From NCBI GenBank assembly GCA_016195085.1, contig JACQAG010000043.1, positions 1-64,000 on the forward strand: DNA of 64,000 bases, given 5' to 3'. Source of the DNA: Pseudomonadota bacterium. GTDB taxonomy: Bacteria; Pseudomonadota; Alphaproteobacteria; SHVZ01. Under the pieces are notes generated by a model, which worked only from the letters and a program-made list of their open reading frames with translations, made no database searches and was not told the DNA's origin. The stretch's first letter is position 1; each line of letters begins with the position of its first letter. The position numbers were made by a program, and so were the translations under genes. Shown here piece by piece: positions 12,678 through 50,932 of the stretch.

Positions 12678-14066
12678 ATGCGGTGGGACTTCGTTCTATT
12701 TTTCGCCAGCCTCGTCATGATCTACGTCGGGGACTGGGCGCTATATATTGGCGTCGGTGGGTTAGTTCTCAGCATGGCCCACGGCACGCTCAAGCGCATT
12801 ACCGACCGAAAGGCCCGGCGAATGGCGGTCACAATTGGCCTTGTGATCTCAGGGATTGGTTTTCTAGGGCTCAGCGCATTTGCGTTAAGGCCGAATTGGT
12901 TTGGCTTAGCCCAAGAGGGAGGATTCCAGACCGCCGAGTCTGACACCACAACCATCGCGCGGCTCGCAGGACTGGGGTGGGCGGTGAGGCCAACGTCCGA
13001 TGGAATCTCATTTGAAATCGCCGGCCGTTCATTACCCCCGATGGAAGAATCGGCGGCATTTTTTCGAATGCTAAAGAGGCCGTTTTCGCTCCAGCTTGGG
13101 CAGATGAATGGGATTGCCGGCCTTCACTATCTCGCGGACGCACCAAACTGCACAAACATCGTAATCAGTGCCGGACAATTCACGGACATCTCTGAGCTTC
13201 GCGGGTTCACCCACCTTGTCAGCCTCACGATCTCGCAATTACCGCTCAACGGAAGCGGGACGGTGGACCCCGCTGTCCTTTCATCACTCACAAGCCTGCA
13301 AGATCTTCGATTGGGCATGACAAAGATCAGGAACGCGGATTTTGTTGCTGCCCTCCCTCACTTGAAGGTGCTCAATCTGGGGCAAACATTTGTCGATGAT
13401 GTATCGGCGGTGGCCGGTCTGGCTTCCCTTGAGACATTGGACGTCCGAGGAACGCGGGTAACTGATTTGCTCCCGATTGCTCAGAACAAGAATCTGAATG
13501 ATTTAACGATTGATGGAATGCAGGTTCCGGGACTTTCGCATTTAAGGAGTCTGGCGAACCTAAAAAAGCTCACCATTATCGACCAACGAGCCATCGATCT
13601 ATCGCGAGTAGGCGATTTAACTAATCTAGAAACGTTAACCATCTTAGGGGGCACCCAACAGTACGACATCGCGCCACTTCAGAGGCTCGCTAAGCTACGC
13701 CAGCTTATGATCTCGGCGCTCGGGTTCGGAACCCAGGCGCCGGTAAAAGATGCACAAGTGATAGGCGACTTAACAGAGCTAAGGACGCTCACCTTGGGGA
13801 GCCTTCTTATCGCGGATGTCACGTTCATTGAAAATCTCAAGAACCTCACTGAACTCAATCTTCGTGAGCTTCCTATCTTCTCGGTCGAGCCGTTGCGTAA
13901 ACTAAAACTCCTCAAAAAAATGGCCCTGACTGGCCTTATGGTATTCGATATCTCGCCGTTGCTGGATCTTCCGGCACTCGCTGATCTCACAGTTGGACGC
14001 ACCCCCGTAAGGGCCGACGTGCTTGCAGTGTTAGAGCAGCGCGGCGTGAAGGTTTCCAGCTTCTAA
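12678..14066 (+). CDS. membrane-anchored leucine-rich-repeat protein
   Basis: A 462-aa protein. Two or three hydrophobic stretches lie in the first 80 residues (FVLFFASLVMIYVGDWALYI, then IGVGGLVLSM, then a third with TIGLVISGIGFLGLSAF). A linker follows, then from about residue 150 to the end there are about a dozen 20-24-residue LRRs of the SDS22/internalin-like type (LTSLQDLRLGMTKI, LPHLKVLNLGQTFVDDVSAV, LASLETLDVRGTRVTDLLPI). No catalytic domain is visible. LRRs usually bind protein partners. GC content and codon use are clearly lower than the flanking core genes, and the gene lies inside the IS1595-type element, so it is acquired cargo. Function unknown; a surface or sensing role is a guess. 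Confidence 0.75.
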   Translation: MRWDFVLFFASLVMIYVGDWALYIGVGGLVLSMAHGTLKRITDRKARRMAVTIGLVISGIGFLGLSAFALRPNWFGLAQEGGFQTAESDTTTIARLAGLGWAVRPTSDGISFEIAGRSLPPMEESAAFFRMLKRPFSLQLGQMNGIAGLHYLADAPNCTNIVISAGQFTDISELRGFTHLVSLTISQLPLNGSGTVDPAVLSSLTSLQDLRLGMTKIRNADFVAALPHLKVLNLGQTFVDDVSAVAGLASLETLDVRGTRVTDLLPIAQNKNLNDLTIDGMQVPGLSHLRSLANLKKLTIIDQRAIDLSRVGDLTNLETLTILGGTQQYDIAPLQRLAKLRQLMISALGFGTQAPVKDAQVIGDLTELRTLTLGSLLIADVTFIENLKNLTELNLRELPIFSVEPLRKLKLLKKMALTGLMVFDISPLLDLPALADLTVGRTPVRADVLAVLEQRGVKVSSF

Positions 14067-14412: not shown

Positions 14413-15402
14413 ATGACCCAGCACTTCCTCCTATCATCGAAAGCCAAGACGCTCACGCTAGCGTCGGTCTTTCGCATGACGGATGCGGAGGCCGAGGCCA
14501 TGTTCCGCCAGATCCGCTGGCCCGAAACCAATGGCGCCCCGTTCTGCCCGAGCTGCGGCACATTGAACGCCTATGAGTGCCGCCGGCATACGGGCGCCCT
14601 ACGGTTCCGCTGCCGGGGTTGCCGGAAAGACTTCAGCATCACGTCCGGGACGCTGTTCGCCTCCCATAAGCTGCCGCTCCGGGCCTATCTGGCGGCCATC
14701 GCCATCTTCTGCAACGAAGTGAAGGGCAAGAGCGCGCTCGCCCTCTCCCGCGACCTCGGCATGTCTTACAAGGCCGCGTTCGTCTTGACCCACAAGTTGC
14801 GGGAAGCGATGGCCGAAGAGATGAAGGGCCGCACGGTCGGCGGCGCTGGCAAGGTCGCGGAGATCGATGGCGGGTACTTCGGCGGCTATATCAAGCCGGC
14901 CAACTGGCGCGAGCATCGGCGCGATCGGCGGCTGGCCCGTAACCAGAATGGCAAGCGCAAGGCCGTTGTGATCGTCCGTGAGCGCAACGGGAACTCCGTC
15001 CCCGCCGTGTTCTCGACCGAGAGCCAGGCCCTCTCCTGGATCACGTCTCGCATTCAGCCGGGCACGGTCGTGAATGCCGACGAAGCGGCCGGGTGGGATA
15101 GCCTCAACAAGCGCTTTGAAATGCGCCGCATCAATCACCAAGACGCCTATAGCGACGGCGAAGCCTGCACTAACATGGCCGAGGAATACTTCTCGCGGTT
15201 GCGCCGCGCGGAGATCGGGCACCACCACCATATCGCGGGCGTCTATCTCCTGCGATACGCGCAAGAGGCGTCTTGGCGGGAAGACAACCGCCGGGTGACC
15301 AATGGCGAGCAAACCGAGCGCGTCGCCCACCTAGCGATGCGGCGCGGGCCGTCCGTGGACTTCACAGGCTATTGGCAGCGTCATGTTGACCGGCCGGTCT
15401 GA
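14413..15402 (+). CDS. IS1595 family transposase (ISXO2-like)
   Basis: A 329-aa transposase. The N-terminus has an IS1595-type zinc ribbon (FCPSCGTLNAYECRRHTGAL, then FRCRGCRKDFSITSGTLF). The core ISXO2-like DDE-type domain begins with VAEIDGGYFGGYIKP (first Asp), continues with TVVNADEAAGWDSL (second Asp) and NMAEEYFSRLRRAEIGHHHH (the N-x-x-E region of this family). It appears full length with no frameshift. A sigma70-like promoter lies about 28 bases upstream. The last 24 codons overlap the 3' end of the convergent 164-aa gene. Start at ATG 14413 is assumed. Confidence 0.9.
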   Translation: MTQHFLLSSKAKTLTLASVFRMTDAEAEAMFRQIRWPETNGAPFCPSCGTLNAYECRRHTGALRFRCRGCRKDFSITSGTLFASHKLPLRAYLAAIAIFCNEVKGKSALALSRDLGMSYKAAFVLTHKLREAMAEEMKGRTVGGAGKVAEIDGGYFGGYIKPANWREHRRDRRLARNQNGKRKAVVIVRERNGNSVPAVFSTESQALSWITSRIQPGTVVNADEAAGWDSLNKRFEMRRINHQDAYSDGEACTNMAEEYFSRLRRAEIGHHHHIAGVYLLRYAQEASWREDNRRVTNGEQTERVAHLAMRRGPSVDFTGYWQRHVDRPV

Positions 15403-22051: not shown

Positions 22052-22202
22052 GGCTCGGGCCGGATCGCCGCCGTCCCTATGGCACGCCCGCCCGACCCCT
22101 GCCGATTCGCGAGGCCGGCGATTCCGGCATGGCTCCTATGCCGGCCTGCGACAAACCGGCGGACTGACAATTCGCCGCCGATCGGATATGGTCCGCCGCT
22201 CC

Positions 22203-23750
22203 ATGACCGACCGCGTGCTCATTCTCGATTTCGGCAGCCAGGTGACCCAGCTCATCGCGCGCCGAGTGCGGGAGAGCGGCGTCTATTCCGAGATCCTGCC
22301 CTTCAACGTCGCAGAGGATCGGGTGCGCGAGTTCGCGCCGAAGGCGATCATCCTCTCCGGCGGCCCGGCCTCGGTTGCAGCATCCGACACGCCCAGGGCG
22401 CCCGAGGTGGTGTTCAAGCTGGGCGTGCCGGTCTTGGGCATCTGCTATGGCGAGATGACCATCTGCGGGCAGCTCGGCGGCGCGGTCGAGGCCGGCCATG
22501 CGCGCGAGTTCGGCCGCACCGAGGTCGAGGTCACGGACAGCTGCGGGCTGTTCGACGGAGTCTGGCCGAAGGGCACGCGCCATACCGTGTGGATGAGCCA
22601 CGGCGACAAGATCACCGCCATCCCGCCCGCCTTCCGCACCGTCGCCATCAGCGAGAACGCGCCCTTCGCCGCCATCGCCGACGACAAGCGGCGCATCTAC
22701 GGCGTGCAATTCCATCCCGAGGTCGCCCACACCCCCGACGGCGCCAAGCTGTTGCGCGCCTTCACCCACGGTGTCGCCGGCTGCTCCGGGGATTGGAGCA
22801 TGAAGGCGTTCCGCCTTGAGGCGATCCGCCGGATCCGGGAGCGCGTCGGCAAGGACCGCGTCATTTGCGGGCTCTCGGGTGGTGTGGACTCCTCGGTCGC
22901 CGCCGTGCTGCTGCACGAGGCGATCGGCGAGCAGCTCACCTGCGTGTTCATCGATCACGGGCTCCTGCGCGCCGGGGAAGCGGAGGAGGTGGTGGAGCTG
23001 TTTCGCGGCCACTACAACATTCCCTTGGTGCACAAGGATGCGAGCCAGCTCTTCTTGGGCCGGCTCCAGGGTGTCACCGACCCCGAGACCAAGCGCAAGA
23101 GCATCGGCGCCACCTTCATCGAGGTATTCGAGGCAGAGGCCAAGCGCATCGGCGATGCGCGCTACCTGGCGCAAGGCACGCTCTATCCCGACGTCATCGA
23201 GTCCGTCAGCTTCACCGGCGGTCCCAGCGTCACCATCAAGTCGCACCACAATGTGGGCGGTCTGCCCGAGCGCATGAAGCTGCTTCTGGTCGAGCCGTTG
23301 CGCGAGCTGTTCAAGGACGAGGTGCGCTTGCTCGGACGCGAGCTGGGCCTGCCCGAGCGCCTTATCGGCCGCCATCCGTTTCCCGGGCCCGGGCTCGCCA
23401 TCCGCATCCCGGGCGAGGTGACGCCGGAGAAGCTCGATCTCCTGCGCCGCGCCGACCGCGTCTATCTGGACGAGATCCGCGCCGCCGGGCTCTACGACAA
23501 GATCTGGCAGGCCTTCGCCGTGCTGCTGCCGGTCAAGACCGTCGGCGTCATGGGCGATGCCCGCTCCTACGACTATGCCCTGGCGCTCCGCGCCGTCACC
23601 TCCAGCGACGGCATGACTGCCGACTCCTATCCCTTCGAGCACGCCTTCCTCGCGCGCGTGGCAACCCGCATCATCAACGAGGTCAAGGGCATCAACCGGG
23701 TCACCTACGACGTCACCTCGAAGCCGCCCGGCACGATCGAGTGGGAGTAG
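22203..23750 (+). CDS. guaA: GMP synthase (glutamine-hydrolysing)
   Basis: A 515-aa enzyme converting XMP to GMP with glutamine and ATP. The N-terminal class-I amidotransferase has the opening [20 protein letters not shown], nucleophile GICYGEM and the GVQFHPE His-Glu. The ATP-pyrophosphatase P-loop is [15 protein letters not shown], and the dimerisation C-terminus ends [12 protein letters not shown]. Note that the nucleophile motif has Cys-Tyr-Gly as in normal GuaA. ATG 22203 (MTDRVLIL) is preferred to 22188. The last 41 codons are the source or target of the tail copies at 24667 and 25864, making its 3' end an island attachment site. Confidence 0.97.
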
Positions 23751-23985
23751 GGGCGGCGACGTCTCTCTACGCAATTAGAGGGGTTGCGCGACGCGATCAG
23801 ACTTAGAGATCGGCCCGGTGCCGCAGGATCCCGCCGTCTCGCTCGCCGCGGCGCTGCTTGGGCGTTTGAAGGCGGATCGGCCTGCGGCCGGCCGAGGGGC
23901 CAAGTTCGGCTGGAGCCGCGGCCTTGAACGCTGATGATATCCTGCCTATGATATCTTATTACCGTAGGATATCATCGAGGGCGCC
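23751..23985. other. spacer with a short decayed coding-like stretch
   Basis: From about 23810 to 23935 one plus frame stays open and reads a coding-like string ending AKFGWSRGLER before TGA. It has no start codon or recognised family, so I treat it as a gene remnant at the left edge of the guaA island. The vapBC operator follows. Confidence 0.35.
23933..23976. promoter_or_regulatory. vapBC operator-like inverted repeat
   Basis: GATGATATCCT (23933-23943) and AGGATATCATC (23966-23976) are perfect 11-bp inverted arms, with a third TGATATC word between them (23949-23955). They end 9 bases before the vapB ATG. VapBC complexes are known to repress their own promoters by binding such palindromes. 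Confidence 0.6.
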
Positions 23986-24216
23986 ATGCAGGTTTCGAAA
24001 TGGGGTAACAGCCTCGCCGTGAGGCTGCCAAAAAGAGTAGTCGAGGAGCTTGAACTGCGCCCCGGCGACGAGCTCCTCATCATCGCGGCGTCAAAGGGCA
24101 AGATCGAGGTCGAAAAGGTCGATCGGCGCGGGGAGTTCCTGAGGCGCCTGGAGCGATTCCGCTGGCGCGTTCCGGAAGGCTACAAGTTCGACCGGGACGA
24201 GGCGAACGAGCGTTGA
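23986..24216 (+). CDS. vapB: VapB-type antitoxin (AbrB family)
   Basis: A 76-aa antitoxin with the N-terminal AbrB/MazE motif MQVSKWGNSLAVRLPKRVVE, then LELRPGDELLI, and a C-terminal toxin-binding tail (FLRRLERFRWRVPEGYKFDR). It has its own palindromic operator and is followed with overlap by vapC, so this is an intact type II module. In the family the antitoxin covers the PIN-domain active site and represses transcription. It is the first gene after guaA and lies between guaA and its first duplicated tail, so it was probably carried in by an island. Confidence 0.88.
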   Translation: MQVSKWGNSLAVRLPKRVVEELELRPGDELLIIAASKGKIEVEKVDRRGEFLRRLERFRWRVPEGYKFDRDEANER

Positions 24217-24617
24217 CTCGGTTTTTCGACACGAACGTTTTCGTCTACGCCTTTCTCGACGTCACGAAGCGTGGACGCGCGATCGATGTCCTTGCCGATG
24301 GCGGCATGATCAGCGTTCAGGTGTTGAACGAATTCGCCAATGTCGCACGCAAGAAGTATCGGCGCGAATGGCCGGAAGTCGAAGCTGCGCTCGCGGTCAT
24401 TTGCGACCGGTTCCCTGACATCGTACCGATCACCGCTGCGATTCATATGAGTGCGGTGGCGCTCGCCCGCGATCATGGCTTCGCCTTCTATGACGCCCTG
24501 ATCGTTGCCGCCGCGCTCGAAGCCGGCTGCGCCACGCTCTACAGCGAGGACATGCAGCACGGTGGAAGCGTCGGCGGGCTGACCATCGTCAATCCCTTCG
24601 CGGACGCGCCCGCATGA
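24213..24617 (+). CDS. vapC: VapC-type toxin, PIN-domain ribonuclease
   Basis: A 134-aa PIN-domain protein. Acidic residues expected for Mg-dependent RNase activity are visible: Asp in [12 protein letters not shown], Glu in [15 protein letters not shown], and Asp in [17 protein letters not shown] plus the downstream YSEDMQHG. The start is TTG 24213, overlapping the vapB stop by four bases (TTGA), a coupling arrangement typical of TA pairs; no ATG is available. VapC toxins cut tRNA or rRNA. The TGA stop overlaps the ATG of an hsdM remnant, showing the original next gene was a type I methyltransferase. Confidence 0.87.
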
Positions 24618-24666
24618 ACTCCCAAACTCTCGTCGCCAAGGTCTGGAACTTCGCGCATGTGCTGCG

Positions 24667-24667
<1 letters not shown>
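24614..24667 (+). pseudogene. hsdM: hsdM N-terminal stub (type I restriction-modification)
   Basis: The frame from ATG 24614 reads [18 protein letters not shown], closely matching the start of HsdM methyltransferase subunits (xxLVxKVWNxAxVLRDDG). After residue 18 it runs directly into the duplicated guaA tail at 24667. The rest of hsdM and any hsdS/hsdR are gone. The ATG overlaps the vapC stop (ATGA). Confidence 0.6.
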
Positions 24668-24762
<95 letters not shown>

Positions 24763-24980
24763 GGGAGTCACACGATAGTCGTCGGGATTTGGTCGGTTAA
24801 GCAGGGGTTTGGAGTGCCATCCCGGGAAAAGTAAGCGTCGCACCAACCGCATCACCTTGGTGGAAAGCTGAATTCGGCTTGTAAGGACGTTCCGCCACCT
24901 CGGAGATGCGTGCCTTTTTGGCTGTGGCCGCGCTATAGACGTCTAGAAGCAACTATGATCCCGCTCTGGGCCCACATGCC

Positions 24981-25862
24981 ATGACGGCGTATTTCACCGA
25001 CCGGGAGTATGGGGCACGCCCACGGACGGTCGATACCATTGATGCTCGGCTGTGGGGAGGGCTGTACAGCCTGATTATGGCACGCTTGGGCGATGGCTCG
25101 TTCGGCCAGCGCTTTCCCGAACAGTGCCCGGACGGCAATGGACCCTGCGGCTGCGATGAACAGGCATTTCGGCTCGTAGCTAACGCCGAGGTACCTTACG
25201 TTGACTGGCCTCTGTCACCTGATCAGTTGCCGGTCGCGCCCCGTATCCTGGACTTACTGGAGTTCTGCGCGGCCGCGGTCGGCCAGCCGATCGAAGGCGG
25301 TTACCACTCCTATTATGGGCACCATCATTTAAGTTGGGATCGTGACGTCGGCCTACAGCGCTTTGTGGCGGACGTTAATCTCTTGTTTGCCCGCAATGGC
25401 GTCGCATATGAACTGACACCGGCAGGTCAGGCGCGTCGCCTTCTGCCGCAGCCACTTGCTGAGGCTCTTGCTTGGGCCGTATCTGCGACAGGGGACGGCG
25501 AGACCGACCGCCTGCTTGAGGTGGCGCGCCTCCGAATCGTTTCGCCGAAGACCGATGATCGCCAGGATGCGCTAGAAAAGCTATGGGACGCGTTTGAGCG
25601 CCTGAAGACTCTGGGGTCGGGGGAGAACAAGAGAGCACAGGCGGACGCCCTGCTCGATCGCGTAGCGCAGCCTGGCTCGAAACTTCGGGAGGTGCTCGGC
25701 GATGAGGCCGTCGCACTCACCAAAATCGGGAATACGTTCAGAATCCGACACTCCGAGACGGATCAGGTATTACTAACCGCCGCGGAGCAGATCGATTTCC
25801 TATTCTTCCGCATGTACGCGTTCATCCACATCGTGTTGAAGGCGACAGCACGAGGCGGGTAG
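24981..25862 (+). CDS. hypothetical protein, candidate HEPN/abortive-infection type
   Basis: A 293-aa protein of unknown function. The N-terminal two-thirds holds CPDGNGPCGCDEQAF, then FRLVANAEVPYVDWPLSPD and GGYHSYYGHHHLSWDRDVGL. The C-terminal 100 residues (DDRQDALEKLWDAFERLKTL, then EAVALTKIGNTFRIRHSETD and FLFFRMYAFIHIVLK) resemble, from memory, the C-terminal domain of Abi-like proteins related to HEPN RNases. It has lower GC than guaA and sits alone between two guaA tail copies; its stop is one base from copy 3. An RNase or phage-defence role is inference from context and weak resemblance. Confidence 0.5.
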   Translation: MTAYFTDREYGARPRTVDTIDARLWGGLYSLIMARLGDGSFGQRFPEQCPDGNGPCGCDEQAFRLVANAEVPYVDWPLSPDQLPVAPRILDLLEFCAAAVGQPIEGGYHSYYGHHHLSWDRDVGLQRFVADVNLLFARNGVAYELTPAGQARRLLPQPLAEALAWAVSATGDGETDRLLEVARLRIVSPKTDDRQDALEKLWDAFERLKTLGSGENKRAQADALLDRVAQPGSKLREVLGDEAVALTKIGNTFRIRHSETDQVLLTAAEQIDFLFFRMYAFIHIVLKATARGG

Positions 25863-25863
25863 T

Positions 25864-25986
<123 letters not shown>

Positions 25987-26211
25987 GGGGCAGAGATACT
26001 CTGCCGTGCTCTTGCGAGGAATATCCTTGAACGAGTAGAGAGTTGAGCGCGGTTTCGTTAACGATCGCCGTCCGAATCGCGAGCGGCATCACGATCCAAT
26101 CAAGCCGCATAGTCATTGCGCTTCGTGACCCTGTGTTTGCCCCTTGGGACATAAAGTTTGGATTTCAGCCCGTCATTTGACGGCGCCAGGCAGCGTGCCT
26201 AACCTCGATGC
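25987..26211. other. spacer upstream of the 1267-aa gene; promoter not identified
   Basis: No gene is seen. Base composition is lower in GC than the core genes. Inverted words near 26020-26060 are weak. The 1267-aa gene probably has its own promoter here, but no clear -35/-10 pair could be assigned. Confidence 0.35.
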
Positions 26212-29200
26212 ATGTTTGAAATCACCGGTGACGACATTGCCGCGTTGAACGACGAAGATTTGCGCACGCTCGTCGGTAATCTTTGCGAGGCAGAGCTGCG
26301 CCGTCGGAACCTTCCTTCGTCGGCCGTCACATGGGGTGGTGACCAAACGGCGAAGGACGGCGGCATCGACGTTCGCGTGGCTCTCGCATTGGGGACGAGC
26401 ATCGATGGCTTCATTCCGAAGGCCAACACGGGTTACCAGATCAAGAAGCAGTATATGCCGCCCTCAGAGATCAACGGCGAAATGAGGCCAAAGGGTGTCG
26501 TACGGCCGGTCATCGGCGAACTGGCTATGGCATCGGGTGCGTATATCATTGTGAGCTCAGCGGACTCGACGTCGGACTCGGCGCTCAAGGACCGCAGGGT
26601 CGCGATGGCGGAATCGGTGCGGGATATTGCCGGCGCCGAAAACCTCATCCTGGATTTTTATGACTGCAACCGCATCGCGACCTGGGTGCGCGGTCACGCG
26701 GGCTTGATACCGTGGACTCGTTCAAGAATTGGCAAGTCAATTCCAGGTTGGCGACCCTACGGTTCGTGGTCGTATGCGCCTGATGGTGCTGACCCCACCT
26801 ATCTGGTCGACGAGGCGGCCCGCATCAAGACGGGTGACGAGAAAGAAGGAGATGGCCTCACCGCAACGAACGGGATAAACAAGATTCGAGATGTGCTTCG
26901 CACACCGGGCCATGTCGTGCGGCTTGTCGGACTTTCAGGCGTCGGAAAGACGCGGTTGGTCGAAGCGCTCTTCGACTCGGCTGTTGGCTCAGGCAGCCTC
27001 GACCCATCTCTCGCCATCTACACGAATATTGCCGAAGGGCCCGATCCTCAGCCTGCCGGCCTCGCCTCCGATCTGATCGCAGGACGCACGCGTGCGATCC
27101 TTGTCATCGACAATTGCCCGCCAGACATCCATCGCCAGCTGTCCGACATCGCCCGATCGGCTCGCACGACGATAAGCGTCATTACGGTCGAGTACGACAT
27201 CCGCGAAGACCAGCCCGAAGGCACAGAGGTCTTCGTGCTGGACACATCTTCGGTAATCCTAATCGAAACGTTGATTTCGAAGCGGTTTCCCAACCTTTCT
27301 CAGATCGATGCCCGAACGATTGCTGAGTTCTCGGGTGGGAACGCGCGTGTCGCCTTGGCGCTGGCCGGTACGGTGGCGAAGAACGAAACGATTGCGGGGT
27401 TGAGCGATGCCGACTTGTTCCGTCGGCTCTTTCAACAGCGGCATGATCCCGACGCTTCGCTCCAGTCAATCGCGCAAGTGTGCTCGCTCGTTTACTCATT
27501 TGAAGGAGAGAAAGTCTCGGGCGACGGAGCCGAGTTGCCGATCCTCGGCGGCCTGATTGGAAAATCTGCTGAAGAAGTATTCCGTGCGGTTGCCGAATTG
27601 AAGCGGCGCGATCTGGTTCAGCAACGCGGGCCATGGCGGGCGGTACTGCCACACGCCATTGCGAACCGCCTTGCAGCCATTGGGCTTGAGAATATTCCTC
27701 GTTCCAAGCTGTTGTCGGTGTTTATAGAGAGCGCGCCTGAGCGCCTCCTTCGGTCCTTCTCGCGTCGCCTTGGCTATCTCGATGGCAGCAGGGAAGCGCA
27801 GGCCATTGTTCAAAGCTGGCTGGCGCCGGGCGGAATATTGAGTGATGTCACCAACCTCACCGAGCTAGGCCGCGCCATGTTCGACAATGTCGCGCCGGTG
27901 ATGCCGGATGCCGTACTTTCGGTACTGGAGAAGGTCTTCGTGGAATCGGATGAGGCCACTCTTAGAAAATGCACCCACTTCCTTAGGCTCCTGCGCTCGC
28001 TTGCTTTCGATCCGGTGCACTTCGAGCGCGCTGTTTCACTTCTCGTTGCGTTTGCCCGGCTGCCCAGTAGTGACCTGTCTAACAGCGATGCGGCGAATAT
28101 CATTGAGTCACTCTTCTACATCGTTCTGTCCGGCACGCACGCACCACTTAAATTGCGTCTTTCCCTCGTTGAACGTTTGCTGCGCTCCTCGGACCCTGTT
28201 GAGCAAGGCTTGGGAGTCAAGGCGCTGCAAGCAATGCTCAAGACAAGTCATTTCTCGTCCACGTATGAATTCGAGTTTGGCGCGCGGTCACGCGACTACG
28301 GGTATTACCCTCCAACTCGCCAGGACGTACGAGATTGGTTCACGTCTGTTTTGAGGCTCGCGGAACCATTCGCGCTGTTGGAAAATCCGGTCGCTGAACT
28401 GGTGCGAAAAGCTATCGCACGTGAATTTCGCGGGCTTTGGACAGATACGGAGGCGGCCGATGAACTGGAGCGGTTGGCATATGCTGTCGCCACCGAGAAG
28501 TTCTGGCGCGAAGGCTGGATCGCCGCGCGTCACACTCGAATTTATGAGGGCAAAGGTCTTCCACCAAAATTACTGGCGCGGCTCACGGCCCTTGAAAAAT
28601 CTCTAAAGCCTGAGAATCTGATCGACAAGGTTCGTGGTCTTGTCCTTGGCTCGAACGGCGGCGGCGTCGATCTCGACGAATTGAACGAGGTTGAAAATGA
28701 CGGCTACGATGCGGCGGCCTCGCGCGTGGCTACGGCGGTCGAAAACCTTGGTCGGGATGTGGCCACCGACGAGCAAGCGTTCAAGGTATTGCTACCTGAG
28801 CTGATCGACGCGTATGGCAAAGTCGTTGGCTTTGGCCAAGGCATGGCGCTTGAAGCCGAACAGCCGCGTGAGATGTGGAGTGCCATGGTCGCACAGGTAA
28901 CTGAGACGGGGAAGCCGGGCATCGACCTCTTGTGTGGTTTTCTCGACGGCCTTCAGAAGCGGGATGGCGCTCTCGCCAATGCCCTGCTGGATGAAGCGTT
29001 GGACGATCCGACGCTCGCCGCGTGGCTTCCCACCTTGCAAGCCGGCGTCCGCATCGATGAAGATGGGCTGCGTCGGCTGCATCGCGCGCTTGAGCTTGGC
29101 AAGGCGCCGATCGATCGATTTTTTGGTCTTGCTTACGGGCGTACCTGTGATGTCATCCCTGGGTCCGAGTTTAAGCGTCTCATGCTGTCGATCGGACAGA

Positions 29201-30015
29201 AACCTGGCGGAGTTCCAGTTGCCATGGATATTCTTGCCATGCGCATGCACTCTGACCGCAGCGGCAAGAAAGCGTTCGTGCCGGAGGTTGCTGAAGCGGG
29301 CCGTGAGCTTCTTAGAGCCTATGAGTTTCATCGCAAGGATAACCGCGCAACGCGCGAAGATTACGAGATAGGCGTGATCGTCCGGGTTTCGCTCGCTGGA
29401 GAGGAAGGAAAGGCGATTGCGCAGCAGTTGTGCCGTAATCTGATGGCCGCAGCTGCGCGGTATGAAGTGCATGCCTACGACCACGACGACCTCTTGAAAG
29501 CACTTTTTCAGGTCCACCCGGTCGACGTGCTCGATGAGCTATTCTCAGGGGACAGGAAGTCCCAGGACAACAGTATCCGGTTGCTGAATGATGTTCTGCG
29601 TTTTGGCAAGACTCCGATTGACGCGGTATCCGACGAGGTCATGCTCGGCTGGTGCGATCGCGAGCCGAAAGACCGGTACCGGTTGGCAGCTGCTGTTGCT
29701 TTGCTGTTCAAACGGCCTAATGACAACGCCCCACATGAATGGACGAGCCTGACGCACCAGCTTCTTATGAAGGCACCTGATCCGGAAGCCGTCTTCAAGG
29801 AAGTCGTCAAGCGCCTGCGTCCCACGGGCTGGAGCGGATCGCTAGCGACGAAGCTTGAATCCCGCCTTACGCTGCTCATTCAACTTGATGTCAGCGCAAT
29901 CCCGACGCTAGCGGCGCCTCTCGATAGTGCCAAGTCAATGCTGAAGCAATGCATAGAAATAGAGCGCCGTCGCGAGACAGAAGAAGACAAGGCCCGCAGC
30001 GGGCGATTTGAATAA
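26212..30015 (+). CDS. candidate nuclease-STAND defence protein (Avs-like architecture)
   Basis: A 1267-aa protein with no signal peptide or membrane segment. Residues 1-130 resemble a PD-(D/E)xK (Mrr-like) nuclease: KDGGIDVRVAL with Asp53, then GYQIKKQ with Gln76-Ile-Lys78, and Glu28 in a preceding helix. A P-loop NTPase follows: Walker A GLSGVGKTRLVEALF (240-247) and Walker B RAILVIDNCP (Asp300). From about 400 to the end are many helical segments (KALQAMLKTSHFSS, LLDEALDDPTLAAWLPTLQA) suggesting a TPR/HEAT-like sensor. Nuclease-NTPase-helical repeats is the layout of Avs/STAND phage-sensing proteins. No such search was run. It is island-borne and lower in GC. The stop is 78 bases before a core GST gene. 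Confidence 0.6.
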   Translation: MFEITGDDIAALNDEDLRTLVGNLCEAELRRRNLPSSAVTWGGDQTAKDGGIDVRVALALGTSIDGFIPKANTGYQIKKQYMPPSEINGEMRPKGVVRPVIGELAMASGAYIIVSSADSTSDSALKDRRVAMAESVRDIAGAENLILDFYDCNRIATWVRGHAGLIPWTRSRIGKSIPGWRPYGSWSYAPDGADPTYLVDEAARIKTGDEKEGDGLTATNGINKIRDVLRTPGHVVRLVGLSGVGKTRLVEALFDSAVGSGSLDPSLAIYTNIAEGPDPQPAGLASDLIAGRTRAILVIDNCPPDIHRQLSDIARSARTTISVITVEYDIREDQPEGTEVFVLDTSSVILIETLISKRFPNLSQIDARTIAEFSGGNARVALALAGTVAKNETIAGLSDADLFRRLFQQRHDPDASLQSIAQVCSLVYSFEGEKVSGDGAELPILGGLIGKSAEEVFRAVAELKRRDLVQQRGPWRAVLPHAIANRLAAIGLENIPRSKLLSVFIESAPERLLRSFSRRLGYLDGSREAQAIVQSWLAPGGILSDVTNLTELGRAMFDNVAPVMPDAVLSVLEKVFVESDEATLRKCTHFLRLLRSLAFDPVHFERAVSLLVAFARLPSSDLSNSDAANIIESLFYIVLSGTHAPLKLRLSLVERLLRSSDPVEQGLGVKALQAMLKTSHFSSTYEFEFGARSRDYGYYPPTRQDVRDWFTSVLRLAEPFALLENPVAELVRKAIAREFRGLWTDTEAADELERLAYAVATEKFWREGWIAARHTRIYEGKGLPPKLLARLTALEKSLKPENLIDKVRGLVLGSNGGGVDLDELNEVENDGYDAAASRVATAVENLGRDVATDEQAFKVLLPELIDAYGKVVGFGQGMALEAEQPREMWSAMVAQVTETGKPGIDLLCGFLDGLQKRDGALANALLDEALDDPTLAAWLPTLQAGVRIDEDGLRRLHRALELGKAPIDRFFGLAYGRTCDVIPGSEFKRLMLSIGQKPGGVPVAMDILAMRMHSDRSGKKAFVPEVAEAGRELLRAYEFHRKDNRATREDYEIGVIVRVSLAGEEGKAIAQQLCRNLMAAAARYEVHAYDHDDLLKALFQVHPVDVLDELFSGDRKSQDNSIRLLNDVLRFGKTPIDAVSDEVMLGWCDREPKDRYRLAAAVALLFKRPNDNAPHEWTSLTHQLLMKAPDPEAVFKEVVKRLRPTGWSGSLATKLESRLTLLIQLDVSAIPTLAAPLDSAKSMLKQCIEIERRRETEEDKARSGRFE

Positions 30016-30093: not shown

Positions 30094-30798
30094 ATGCCCG
30101 ATCTATCCCACTTCCCCATCACCAAGCGCTGGCCGGCCAAGCATCCCGACCGTCTGCAGCTCTATTCCCTGCCGACGCCGAACGGCGTCAAGGTGTCGAT
30201 CGCACTGGAGGAGATCGGGCTTGCCTATGAGCCGCACCGGATCGACATCGGCGCCAACGAGACCTGGACGCCGGAATTCCTGTCGCTCAATCCGAACGGC
30301 AAGATCCCGGCGATCATCGATCCGGACGGGCCAGGCGGCACCCCCTTCGGGCTGTTCGAATCCGGAGCGATCCTGCTCTATCTGGCCGAGAAGGTCGGCA
30401 AGCTGCTGCCGAAGGATGCGGCGCTCCGCTACGAGACCATTCAATGGGTGTTCTTTCAGATGGCAGCGGTCGGGCCGATGTTCGGCCAGGTCGGCTATTT
30501 CTACAAATTCGCTGGAAAGGAGATCGCCGACAAGCGTCCGCTCGAACGCTATCGCGCGGAGTCTCAAAGATTGCTTGGTGTCATGGAGACGCGCCTCGAC
30601 GATCGGCACTGGATCATGGGCGATGACTACACCATCGCCGATATCGCTCTCCTCGGCTGGGTCCGCAATCTGATCGGCTTCTACGGCGCGCGCGAGCTCG
30701 TCGCGTTCGATAGCCTGAAGTATGTTCCGGCCTGGCTGGAGCGCGGTTTGGCACGACCGGCGGTGCAACGGGGTCTGGAGATTCCCAAGCGAGCGTGA
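30094..30798 (+). CDS. glutathione S-transferase, YfcG/nu-class-like
   Basis: A 234-aa GST. The thioredoxin-fold N-terminus reads LQLYSLPTPNGVKVSIALEE, the glutathione-binding loop SLNPNGKIPAIIDPDGPGG, with FESGAILLYLAEK completing the G-site. The alpha-helical C-terminal domain includes HWIMGDDYTIADIALLGWV. The Thr-Pro-Asn-Gly N-terminal motif in place of a catalytic Ser/Cys/Tyr is characteristic of the YfcG/Ure2p-like disulphide-bond oxidoreductase group. It is the first core-like gene after the guaA island. Confidence 0.88.
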   Translation: MPDLSHFPITKRWPAKHPDRLQLYSLPTPNGVKVSIALEEIGLAYEPHRIDIGANETWTPEFLSLNPNGKIPAIIDPDGPGGTPFGLFESGAILLYLAEKVGKLLPKDAALRYETIQWVFFQMAAVGPMFGQVGYFYKFAGKEIADKRPLERYRAESQRLLGVMETRLDDRHWIMGDDYTIADIALLGWVRNLIGFYGARELVAFDSLKYVPAWLERGLARPAVQRGLEIPKRA

Positions 30799-49049: not shown

Positions 49050-49466
49050 TTGGCGAGCCGGGACGAAACTCAGCCGCTTCGGGTCTATGATGCTGGAGAG
49101 CGGCGCTTTAAGCATAAGGGGCAATCCTCCAAGGCCGAGATTCGCTTTGACCCTCGAAGTCCTAAACGCGCAATTGGCATTTGCCCGAACAACATTTCCG
49201 ATGCGCAAAAGGTGGAGCTGCTCAATGGGGCGATAGAAGTCGAAAGCGACCTGCGTGAAGGGCAGTGGCCGTCCCGGCTGTACAACGTTCACCGAGGAGC
49301 TATTTACGAGGCGCGGACCACGACGGCGGGAAGGTCGTACCATGGTTACCCTTATCGTGGTCGGCTAAGACGAGAATTGATTGATCTCTTACGGCAGATT
49401 GCTGCGAACAAGGATTGTCTCGATGAATTCGAGAAATGGGTCGATGAGCATATAAGCCAGTCATGA
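49050..49466 (+). CDS. small protein partner of ImmA/IrrE-type protease
   Basis: A 138-aa protein. The visible natural region includes QPLRVYDAGERRFKHKGQSS, then AIGICPNNISDAQKVELLNG, WPSRLYNVHRGAIYEARTTT and YHGYPYRGRLRRELIDLLRQ. The only available start is TTG 49050; codons between 49005 and 49049 also look coding, so the true start may be non-canonical or the gene 5' end damaged. Its TGA overlaps the ATG of the next gene (ATGA), so they are translated together. A recurring pairing of such proteins with ImmA/IrrE proteins is remembered, not verified. Function unknown. Confidence 0.6.
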   Translation: MASRDETQPLRVYDAGERRFKHKGQSSKAEIRFDPRSPKRAIGICPNNISDAQKVELLNGAIEVESDLREGQWPSRLYNVHRGAIYEARTTTAGRSYHGYPYRGRLRRELIDLLRQIAANKDCLDEFEKWVDEHISQS

Positions 49467-50932
49467 TCCCTACGATCCGTAACGCTCGCGCTTTGTCATT
49501 TGCTATCCGGTGGCGACCTATTGACGCTCCGGGGAAGGCAAGCAATCACGCCGATATCGAACTCAGAATCGACGATACACGCATTTGGCCCTCGGGTCAG
49601 GTTGATGACAGTTTTGCATGGTTTGCCGACGAGCTACTTGCGCATTTGACGGAGTATTGGAAGGCACTGGTGTTGCAACAGACCTATCCTGGTTCGTTGC
49701 AACCACCCTATCCTTCGGCTTTGCGGCACGAAGCGAACATCAGCTCCGTGTCAGCTAGCCAGGAGATCGCTCGAAAGCTTGCTCAGGAAGTCGACGATTT
49801 TGAGACGGCGCACAATCTGGCGTCGGCCTTCGGAGGTATTTCAGGGATCCCCTCCCTATGGTTGGTACGCGAAGAAATGGCAATGGTTGTCGAACCAGAA
49901 GGGCGCAATCCATATCGTGTGCCTCTTAGCGGCGCGATCACGGCACTCAACAATGTTGGTGACGAAATATGCGTCCGCCTTCGCGACAGCGGTGATAGCA
50001 GATGGAGTGCAATAATTGCTGCGTGGGAGTCCAGAAACGGAGGCGATTCGGTTCGGATTCAGTCGTTCGCAATAGGGCAAGATTTGGAGACCACTCGTGC
50101 GTTGATTCACGACCGCTTTCTCGCTTCGCCTAACTCAGTCATTGATGCGAGCAATGACAACGACGAACTCAAGATCGCGGCGCGCATGTCAGGCATCCTC
50201 ACAATTGCGGAAATAGAAGCTATTTTGAGGGAAGTCAGGTCTTGTGGACTTCGGCAAACGGACACTCTCGACCGACTTTCTCAAGAAGCACTCGACTTTG
50301 CTGATGATGACAGAACGGATAGCCTAATTCATGAGGCCGGCATTCGTGCGGCGAAATGGTTGCGTCAGAAGCTCGTGCTGCGGCCGGTGGACATAAGTGA
50401 TCCATTCAAATTTCTGGCAGATCACAATGTCGATGTTAGAGAGCGATCACTCAATTCGCCGGAGGTCGACGCAATTGCTTGTTGGGGACCACGCCACGGT
50501 CCGGCGATTATCATCAACCGAACGTCGCGGCGTCACAAGACACCGTATACAGGTCCGATGGCGCGTGCCGGTGCGATTCGCGCGACTGCTGCTCATGAAA
50601 TCTGTCACCTGTTGTTCGATCGCGGGCACACACTTCCTGCGGCAGAGGTGCTTGGTGGTCGAGTAGCTCATTGGGTGGAGCAGCGTGCTCGTGCCTTCGC
50701 TGCTGCGTTCCTATTGCTGCCCTCAGTTGCTGCGGATAAGTGGCACGCGCATGGACGCCCCATGGATGAAGAAGGTGTAAACAAAGCTCTAACGGCTCTC
50801 TGTGCACGCTATCAAGTTACTAAGAGCATCGCGGCGTGGCAGCTCGAGCATGGTCTCGGCTCGGAGGTTAATCCTCAATTGAAACGAATTCTCGACCGCG
50901 TCGCACCAAATCGGTACGCGGCTCTGCCCTAA
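49463..50932 (+). CDS. ImmA/IrrE family metallo-endopeptidase
   Basis: A 489-aa protein. The HExxH zinc motif is AAHEICHLLFDRG (about residue 377), followed by EQRARAFAAAFLLLPS, the ImmA/IrrE third-ligand region. The 330-residue N-terminal part (IEAILREVRSCGLRQTDTLD) is unknown. ImmA-type peptidases cut repressors of mobile elements; IrrE controls the DNA-damage response. No repressor gene is adjacent, but the coupled small protein at 49050 could be the substrate or partner. GC is lower than in neighbours, indicating acquisition. Its stop overlaps the convergent stop of the Na/Pi gene by four bases. Confidence 0.8.
   Translation: MIPTIRNARALSFAIRWRPIDAPGKASNHADIELRIDDTRIWPSGQVDDSFAWFADELLAHLTEYWKALVLQQTYPGSLQPPYPSALRHEANISSVSASQEIARKLAQEVDDFETAHNLASAFGGISGIPSLWLVREEMAMVVEPEGRNPYRVPLSGAITALNNVGDEICVRLRDSGDSRWSAIIAAWESRNGGDSVRIQSFAIGQDLETTRALIHDRFLASPNSVIDASNDNDELKIAARMSGILTIAEIEAILREVRSCGLRQTDTLDRLSQEALDFADDDRTDSLIHEAGIRAAKWLRQKLVLRPVDISDPFKFLADHNVDVRERSLNSPEVDAIACWGPRHGPAIIINRTSRRHKTPYTGPMARAGAIRATAAHEICHLLFDRGHTLPAAEVLGGRVAHWVEQRARAFAAAFLLLPSVAADKWHAHGRPMDEEGVNKALTALCARYQVTKSIAAWQLEHGLGSEVNPQLKRILDRVAPNRYAALP

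Follow-up and report, generated by a model that had tools for sequence, protein, structure and literature searches.

A PD-λ-4A homologue with a predicted nuclease effector, a STAND NTPase and a helical-repeat region at the 3' end of guaA

The gene at 26212..30015 (forward strand) of the 64-kb stretch of DNA analysed here, which we call the window, is by sequence a member of an already described, little studied phage-defence family, PD-λ-4A, and it probably works, without the partner gene B, as a single-protein NLR-like phage sensor. Its family membership, domain order, invariant residues, exchange of effectors among homologues, patchy distribution and location in a defence hotspot are supported directly. 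The reading frame opens with ATG and is uninterrupted over 1267 aa, and the intact protein matches the PADLOC model PDLC03991 (PD-Lambda-4_A) with E=0 and 1032.5 bits, aligning model positions 3-1283 of 1283 with residues 1-1267. BLASTP aligned it end to end and collinearly with the A protein of the Escherichia coli PD-λ-4 locus (31% identity), a locus reached through its distant DNA similarity to a copy on an Enterobacter plasmid. That E. coli protein (1283 aa) itself covers all 1283 positions of PDLC03991 with 2524 bits, and its gene is followed, after a 45 bp gap, by a gene matching PD-Lambda-4_B. The match to PDLC03991 and the alignment with E. coli A thus place the window protein, a full-length homologue of protein A, in a reported family. 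The two proteins also share the nuclease motif, the Walker motifs, their length and a C-terminal RFE ending.

The PD-λ systems of E. coli were obtained by functional selection with phage, and each cloned E. coli system reduced plating efficiency (Vassallo et al. 2022, PMC9519451), where the PD-λ systems are dealt with as one group. The system is entered with a P-loop NTPase in a review, and there is hardly any literature under the name PD-λ-4. A preliminary description of this DNA had suggested a possible unreported Avs/STAND defence system, of either a known or a new Avs subfamily. The nuclease-STAND-helical plan and the defence setting stand, on the evidence of conservation, fold searches and genomic context. 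The system is not unreported, as an experimental selection in E. coli brought out the PD-λ-4 A family in 2022 and PADLOC includes it, and an Avs assignment has no support from sequence: among the PADLOC models, the window protein matched those of PD-Lambda-4_A only, with no Avs model matching at E ≤ 1. Searches of PDB sequences with the protein, or with profiles of residues 1-560, 480-1267 and 1-193, returned no related entry, and NCBIfam and PHROGs gave nothing useful.

The N-terminal region (residues 1-175, 26212..26736) is predicted to be a PD-(D/E)xK-type nuclease effector. None of the residues D49, G50, G51, D53, Q76, K78 and E90 varies among the 17 aligned nuclease-type sequences, and the Asp53 and Gln76-Lys78 pattern of the preliminary description lies at the positions given there. 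In an AlphaFold2 model of residues 1-560 (pLDDT 79), for which an alignment of homologues was supplied as input, the N-terminal core has the order αβββαβ; D53 lies at the start of strand 2 and Q76-x-K78 at the end of strand 3, as in the layout of PD-(D/E)xK folds. The nuclease prediction is based on motif, topology and invariance, because residues 1-175 gave no nuclease profile or sequence match in Pfam, PADLOC or PDB sequences. DUF4365 gave a sub-threshold match in the nuclease region of one homologue, the result list of a structure search with residues 1-560 was filled by the NTPase domain, and the Cap4 nuclease (PF14130), sought as a reference, had no match in 115 genomes, nor in the controls.

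Comparison of homologues points to the N-terminal region as an exchangeable module. Alignments of the window protein with copies from Shewanella, Kangiellaceae, Lelliottia and Enterobacter roggenkampii begin only at residue ~165, and the N-termini of these copies are α/β-hydrolases (Abhydrolase_6, DUF676, PGAP1). HGLxG is present in the hydrolase copies and GHSxG in 4 of 5, and those scanned match PADLOC DUF626_VIII. The copies from Lelliottia (L035), E. roggenkampii (L036) and Shewanella (L014/L016) share the STAND and C-terminal region with the window protein but carry a DUF676-like α/β-hydrolase where the window protein has the predicted nuclease. A tree of the common STAND and C-terminal part, which took in four hydrolase copies (Shewanella, Lelliottia and Enterobacter) and left out that of Kangiellaceae, grouped the four as a clade (support 0.998) lying among members of the nuclease type. 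Replacement of residues ~1-165 with retention of the remainder fits the expectation for an exchangeable effector at residues 1-175; judged from these alignments, the effector is swappable on a common STAND-sensor chassis. Further domains precede the nuclease in two other loci. One contig of the viral collection (L075, 9761-13780) carries a LexA DNA-binding domain in frame with a complete nuclease-STAND PD-λ-4A, near a serine-recombinase-like gene, while a further copy (L067, 484-5256, genome G590) has an additional N-terminus of ~330 aa bearing an Xre-type HTH.

Residues ~217-480 (26860..27651) form a predicted STAND NTPase followed by a winged-helix-like region. The Walker A motif GLSGVGKTR occupies residues 240-248 (26929-26955) and the Walker B Asp300 lies at 27109-27111, both where the preliminary description had placed them. 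G240, S242, G243, G245, K246, T247 and R248 are invariant in 23 sequences comprising both effector types, as are D300, C302, H307 and R379. Such invariance, here and in the nuclease region, exceeds what chance would give. Pfam matches to AAA_16 and nSTAND3 were both below the cut-offs. Foldseek searches of the PDB with residues 1-560 were headed by an NRC3 complex, a STAND-TPR protein, NRC4 and Avs3 with terminase (8dgc, rank 4, E 2.3e-6), with E values of 8e-7 to about 2e-6; Apaf-1, NLRP3, NOD2 and NLRC4 followed at lower ranks, with some ORC and clamp-loader chains interspersed. The matches to NLRC4, Apaf-1, NRC and STAND-TPR proteins fall within residues 159-560. VIA-align gave Z 11.4 for NLRC4 (4kxf; rmsd 6.3 over 323 residues) and Z 9.9 for AVAST5 (9nc9), but clamp-loader AAA+ structures equal the STAND structures by Z, so that fold comparison alone cannot separate the two. 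The STAND assignment of this modelled region draws jointly on the ranked fold matches, the motifs and the domain architecture.

The remaining residues, 480-1267 (27649..30012), were modelled by AlphaFold2, using the alignment of homologues, as an all-helical HEAT/ARM-like solenoid (pLDDT 85.8), in agreement with the long helical C-terminal region noted in the preliminary description, here ~790 residues. This is the presumed sensor. Its best structure matches, karyopherins and the PP2A-A scaffold, may reflect only a common HEAT/ARM-like repeat arrangement. The predicted protein thus combines an exchangeable N-terminal effector, a nuclease or in homologues an α/β-hydrolase, with a central NTPase and a C-terminal repeat sensor. 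An N-terminal nuclease, a central STAND NTPase and a helical-repeat C-terminus are also found in Avs1-Avs4 (AVAST), and Avs3 is among the best fold matches, although the window protein has no sequence match to Avs models and is shorter (1267 aa, compared with about 2000 for Avs3 in 8dgc). Avs5 (AVAST type 5) has the STAND chassis in common with the window protein but uses a SIR2 NADase as effector in place of the predicted nuclease.

PD-λ-4A matches were found in 8 of 385 genomes of the class, in 43 plasmid records and in 7 predicted viral contigs of a viral collection, while no record of the phage collection matched. Neighbourhoods vary among genomes, and several copies are frame-shifted or truncated. 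Such a sporadic, plasmid-borne and sometimes decayed occurrence is typical of accessory, mobile genes, and not of a housekeeping gene with conserved neighbours, the outcome against which the preliminary description had asked to check. We considered one copy (G028) as a natural split of the nuclease and STAND parts into two genes and rejected this, as its two ORFs overlap in different frames and the gene lacks its beginning and its end, which we take as signs of a decayed copy.

In the window, the gene lies downstream of guaA (22188..23750, identified by translation), a host gene with the insertion site at its 3' end; all features of this region are on the forward strand. The guaA 3' end occurs three times within 23628-25989, as the true end and two copies detected by blastn at 24664..24765 (93% identical) and 25864..25989 (88% identical). 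The sequence GAGTGGGA is present in each of the three ends (at 23739-23746, 24751 and 25975) and absent elsewhere in the 64 kb; three matches are not unusual by count in 64 kb, but their positions are. Integration of the element GIsul2 into guaA is reported to take place at this sequence (PMC9376610). The guaA-tail copies part the interval into modules. The module after the true end holds a VapBC-like pair (23986..24617) made up of a MazE/AbrB-fold antitoxin (23986-24216; PF04014, E 2.6e-13) and a PIN toxin (24213-24617; PF01850, E 2.6e-14). A short ORF start read from the sequence (24614..24667), which presumably resembles the 5' end of hsdM and the N-termini of HsdM proteins, is ended after 18 residues by the first guaA-tail copy. 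Between the copies lies a separate module, a PDC-S32/AbiJ_NTD4-like candidate defence gene (24981..25862, 293 aa; PDLC04995, E 3.1e-47; PF18863, sub-threshold), and PD-λ-4A follows the second copy.

No gene of the PDC-S32/AbiJ_NTD4-like type was found near other PD-λ-4A genes; the PDC-S32 protein was considered as a stand-in for protein B and rejected, having no similarity to B and no linkage with PD-λ-4A elsewhere. A glutathione S-transferase (GST) gene (30094..30798; PF02798) probably bounds the variable interval on the right, a GST orthologue also following guaA in a relative (G351). No integrase was seen between guaA and the GST gene, and an upstream scan of the PD-λ-4A gene found no sigma-70-like promoter. 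The preliminary description had pictured a low-GC stretch beside a guaA-tail island with vapBC and a candidate Abi protein, and this picture is borne out by the blastn and profile matches above and by a GC content of 57.9% for the PD-λ-4A gene against 64.8% for the window. Low GC also marks two further places in the window. At 49050-50932 there is a gene pair with weak matches to the RmrA and capP models; one product is 138 aa long, and the other, of 489 aa, has an IrrE-like (M78) peptidase domain at its C-terminus. The gene at 12678-14066 encodes a leucine-rich-repeat protein of 462 aa and lies upstream of an IS1595-family transposase (14413-15402).

The same position carries varied genes in related bacteria. 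guaA is present in 7 of 7 genomes of the bacterial family, and in one of them (G385) PD-λ-4A lies 98 bp downstream. An ABC-F-like gene, a label given from translation alone, follows guaA in three relatives: in G056 genes for a SIR2-type protein associated with pAgo and for a short pAgo come next, in G274 a guaA-tail copy and then the start of a Dsr1-like gene, and G386 has the arrangement of G274 with an EVE/type II REase-like protein. The pAgo locus of G056 (L087, 3851-8108) consists of a SIR2-PNTD Aga protein and then the short pAgo. In G351, a 299-aa unclassified protein is followed by the GST gene ~2.9 kb from guaA, and in G178 the contig ends ~2.4 kb after guaA. GST orthologues of three relatives lie on fetched stretches that do not contain guaA. 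The guaA 3' end is a defence-gene insertion hotspot with guaA-tail boundaries, and PD-λ-4A is one of the exchangeable cargo modules found there.

The window gene differs from E. coli PD-λ-4 in having no B, in its alphaproteobacterial branch and in its position at the guaA 3'-end hotspot. PD-Lambda-4_B (PDLC03992) had no match in the whole genome from which the window comes, and no B-like ORF was seen in the 64-kb window. With A full length and B absent, the gene encodes a PD-λ-4A protein and does not form a complete two-gene PD-λ-4 system. In a sample of the phylum, A was found in 7 genomes, 6 of which have no B; the exception is the E. coli-type genome G657, where B adjoins A, and B was also found without A. 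A profile of three B proteins detected none in any other fetched A locus beyond the E. coli type, and the A copy of an Enterobacter mori plasmid is 55% identical to E. coli A, yet without B. In E. coli EC71 (L042, 11898-12810), the PD-Lambda-4_B match is spread over two overlapping ORFs (248 and 59 aa), which together span the 303 positions of the model, and B there may be broken beside an intact A. The catalytic residues of A are invariant in copies without B, which suggests that A is functional, and may act alone, without B. Every homologue looked at beyond the E. coli type is without an adjacent B, so that A normally stands as a unit of one gene.

From this architecture, and by analogy with Avs proteins, the helical solenoid (480-1267) would bind a phage component, and binding would free the STAND NTPase (217-480) for nucleotide binding and oligomerisation. 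The oligomer would bring the PD-(D/E)xK domains (1-175) together to cleave DNA, ending the infection and probably costing the cell. That the protein represents an incomplete system seems unlikely. On this reading PD-λ-4 needs B, and A is either inactive here or uses an unlinked partner, in keeping with the order A then B in E. coli, with the separate PADLOC model for B and with the absence of B from the whole genome; however, B adjoins A only in loci of the E. coli type, each gene occurs without the other in the phylum sample, and A keeps its catalytic residues where B is missing.

We consider it improbable that the protein belongs to Avs1-4 proper, whose triggers are terminase or portal (PMC12931631), and senses one of these: the domain order is identical and 8dgc ranks fourth for residues 1-560, but no Avs model matches where PD-Lambda-4_A does so with E=0, other STAND proteins match equally well, and the C-terminal region resembles generic HEAT/ARM scaffolds. 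A non-immune STAND-type regulator or DNA-repair protein, acting for example in stress-dependent gene control, is a most improbable reading. The LexA-type and Xre-type domains of L075 and L067 hint that some lineages may use the protein for control of transcription or of DNA damage, but λvir was the phage used in selecting the related E. coli locus, the gene is sporadic, with copies on plasmids and predicted viral contigs and some frame-shifted, and the local slot carries defence genes in relatives. Returning to the single-protein phage sensor, a wider proposal that we put forward tentatively is that PD-λ-4A could be an Avs-like family of its own, a single-gene NLR with swappable effectors (nuclease, α/β-hydrolase, LexA- or HTH-extended nuclease) whose classification as a two-gene system would stem from the presence of B beside the E. 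coli copy, and whose trigger would be a phage component new to Avs.

Beyond family membership, the comparison adds the exchange of effectors, the absent partner gene and the guaA hotspot. These observations suggest that detection rules requiring A plus B likely miss most PD-λ-4A members, and they mark the 3' end of guaA and the GAGTGGGA core in it as a place to seek more defence genes in this bacterial family. The comparison makes PD-λ-4 a testable NLR-like family, with a constant chassis, exchanged effectors, a dispensable-looking partner and defined, predicted catalytic residues.
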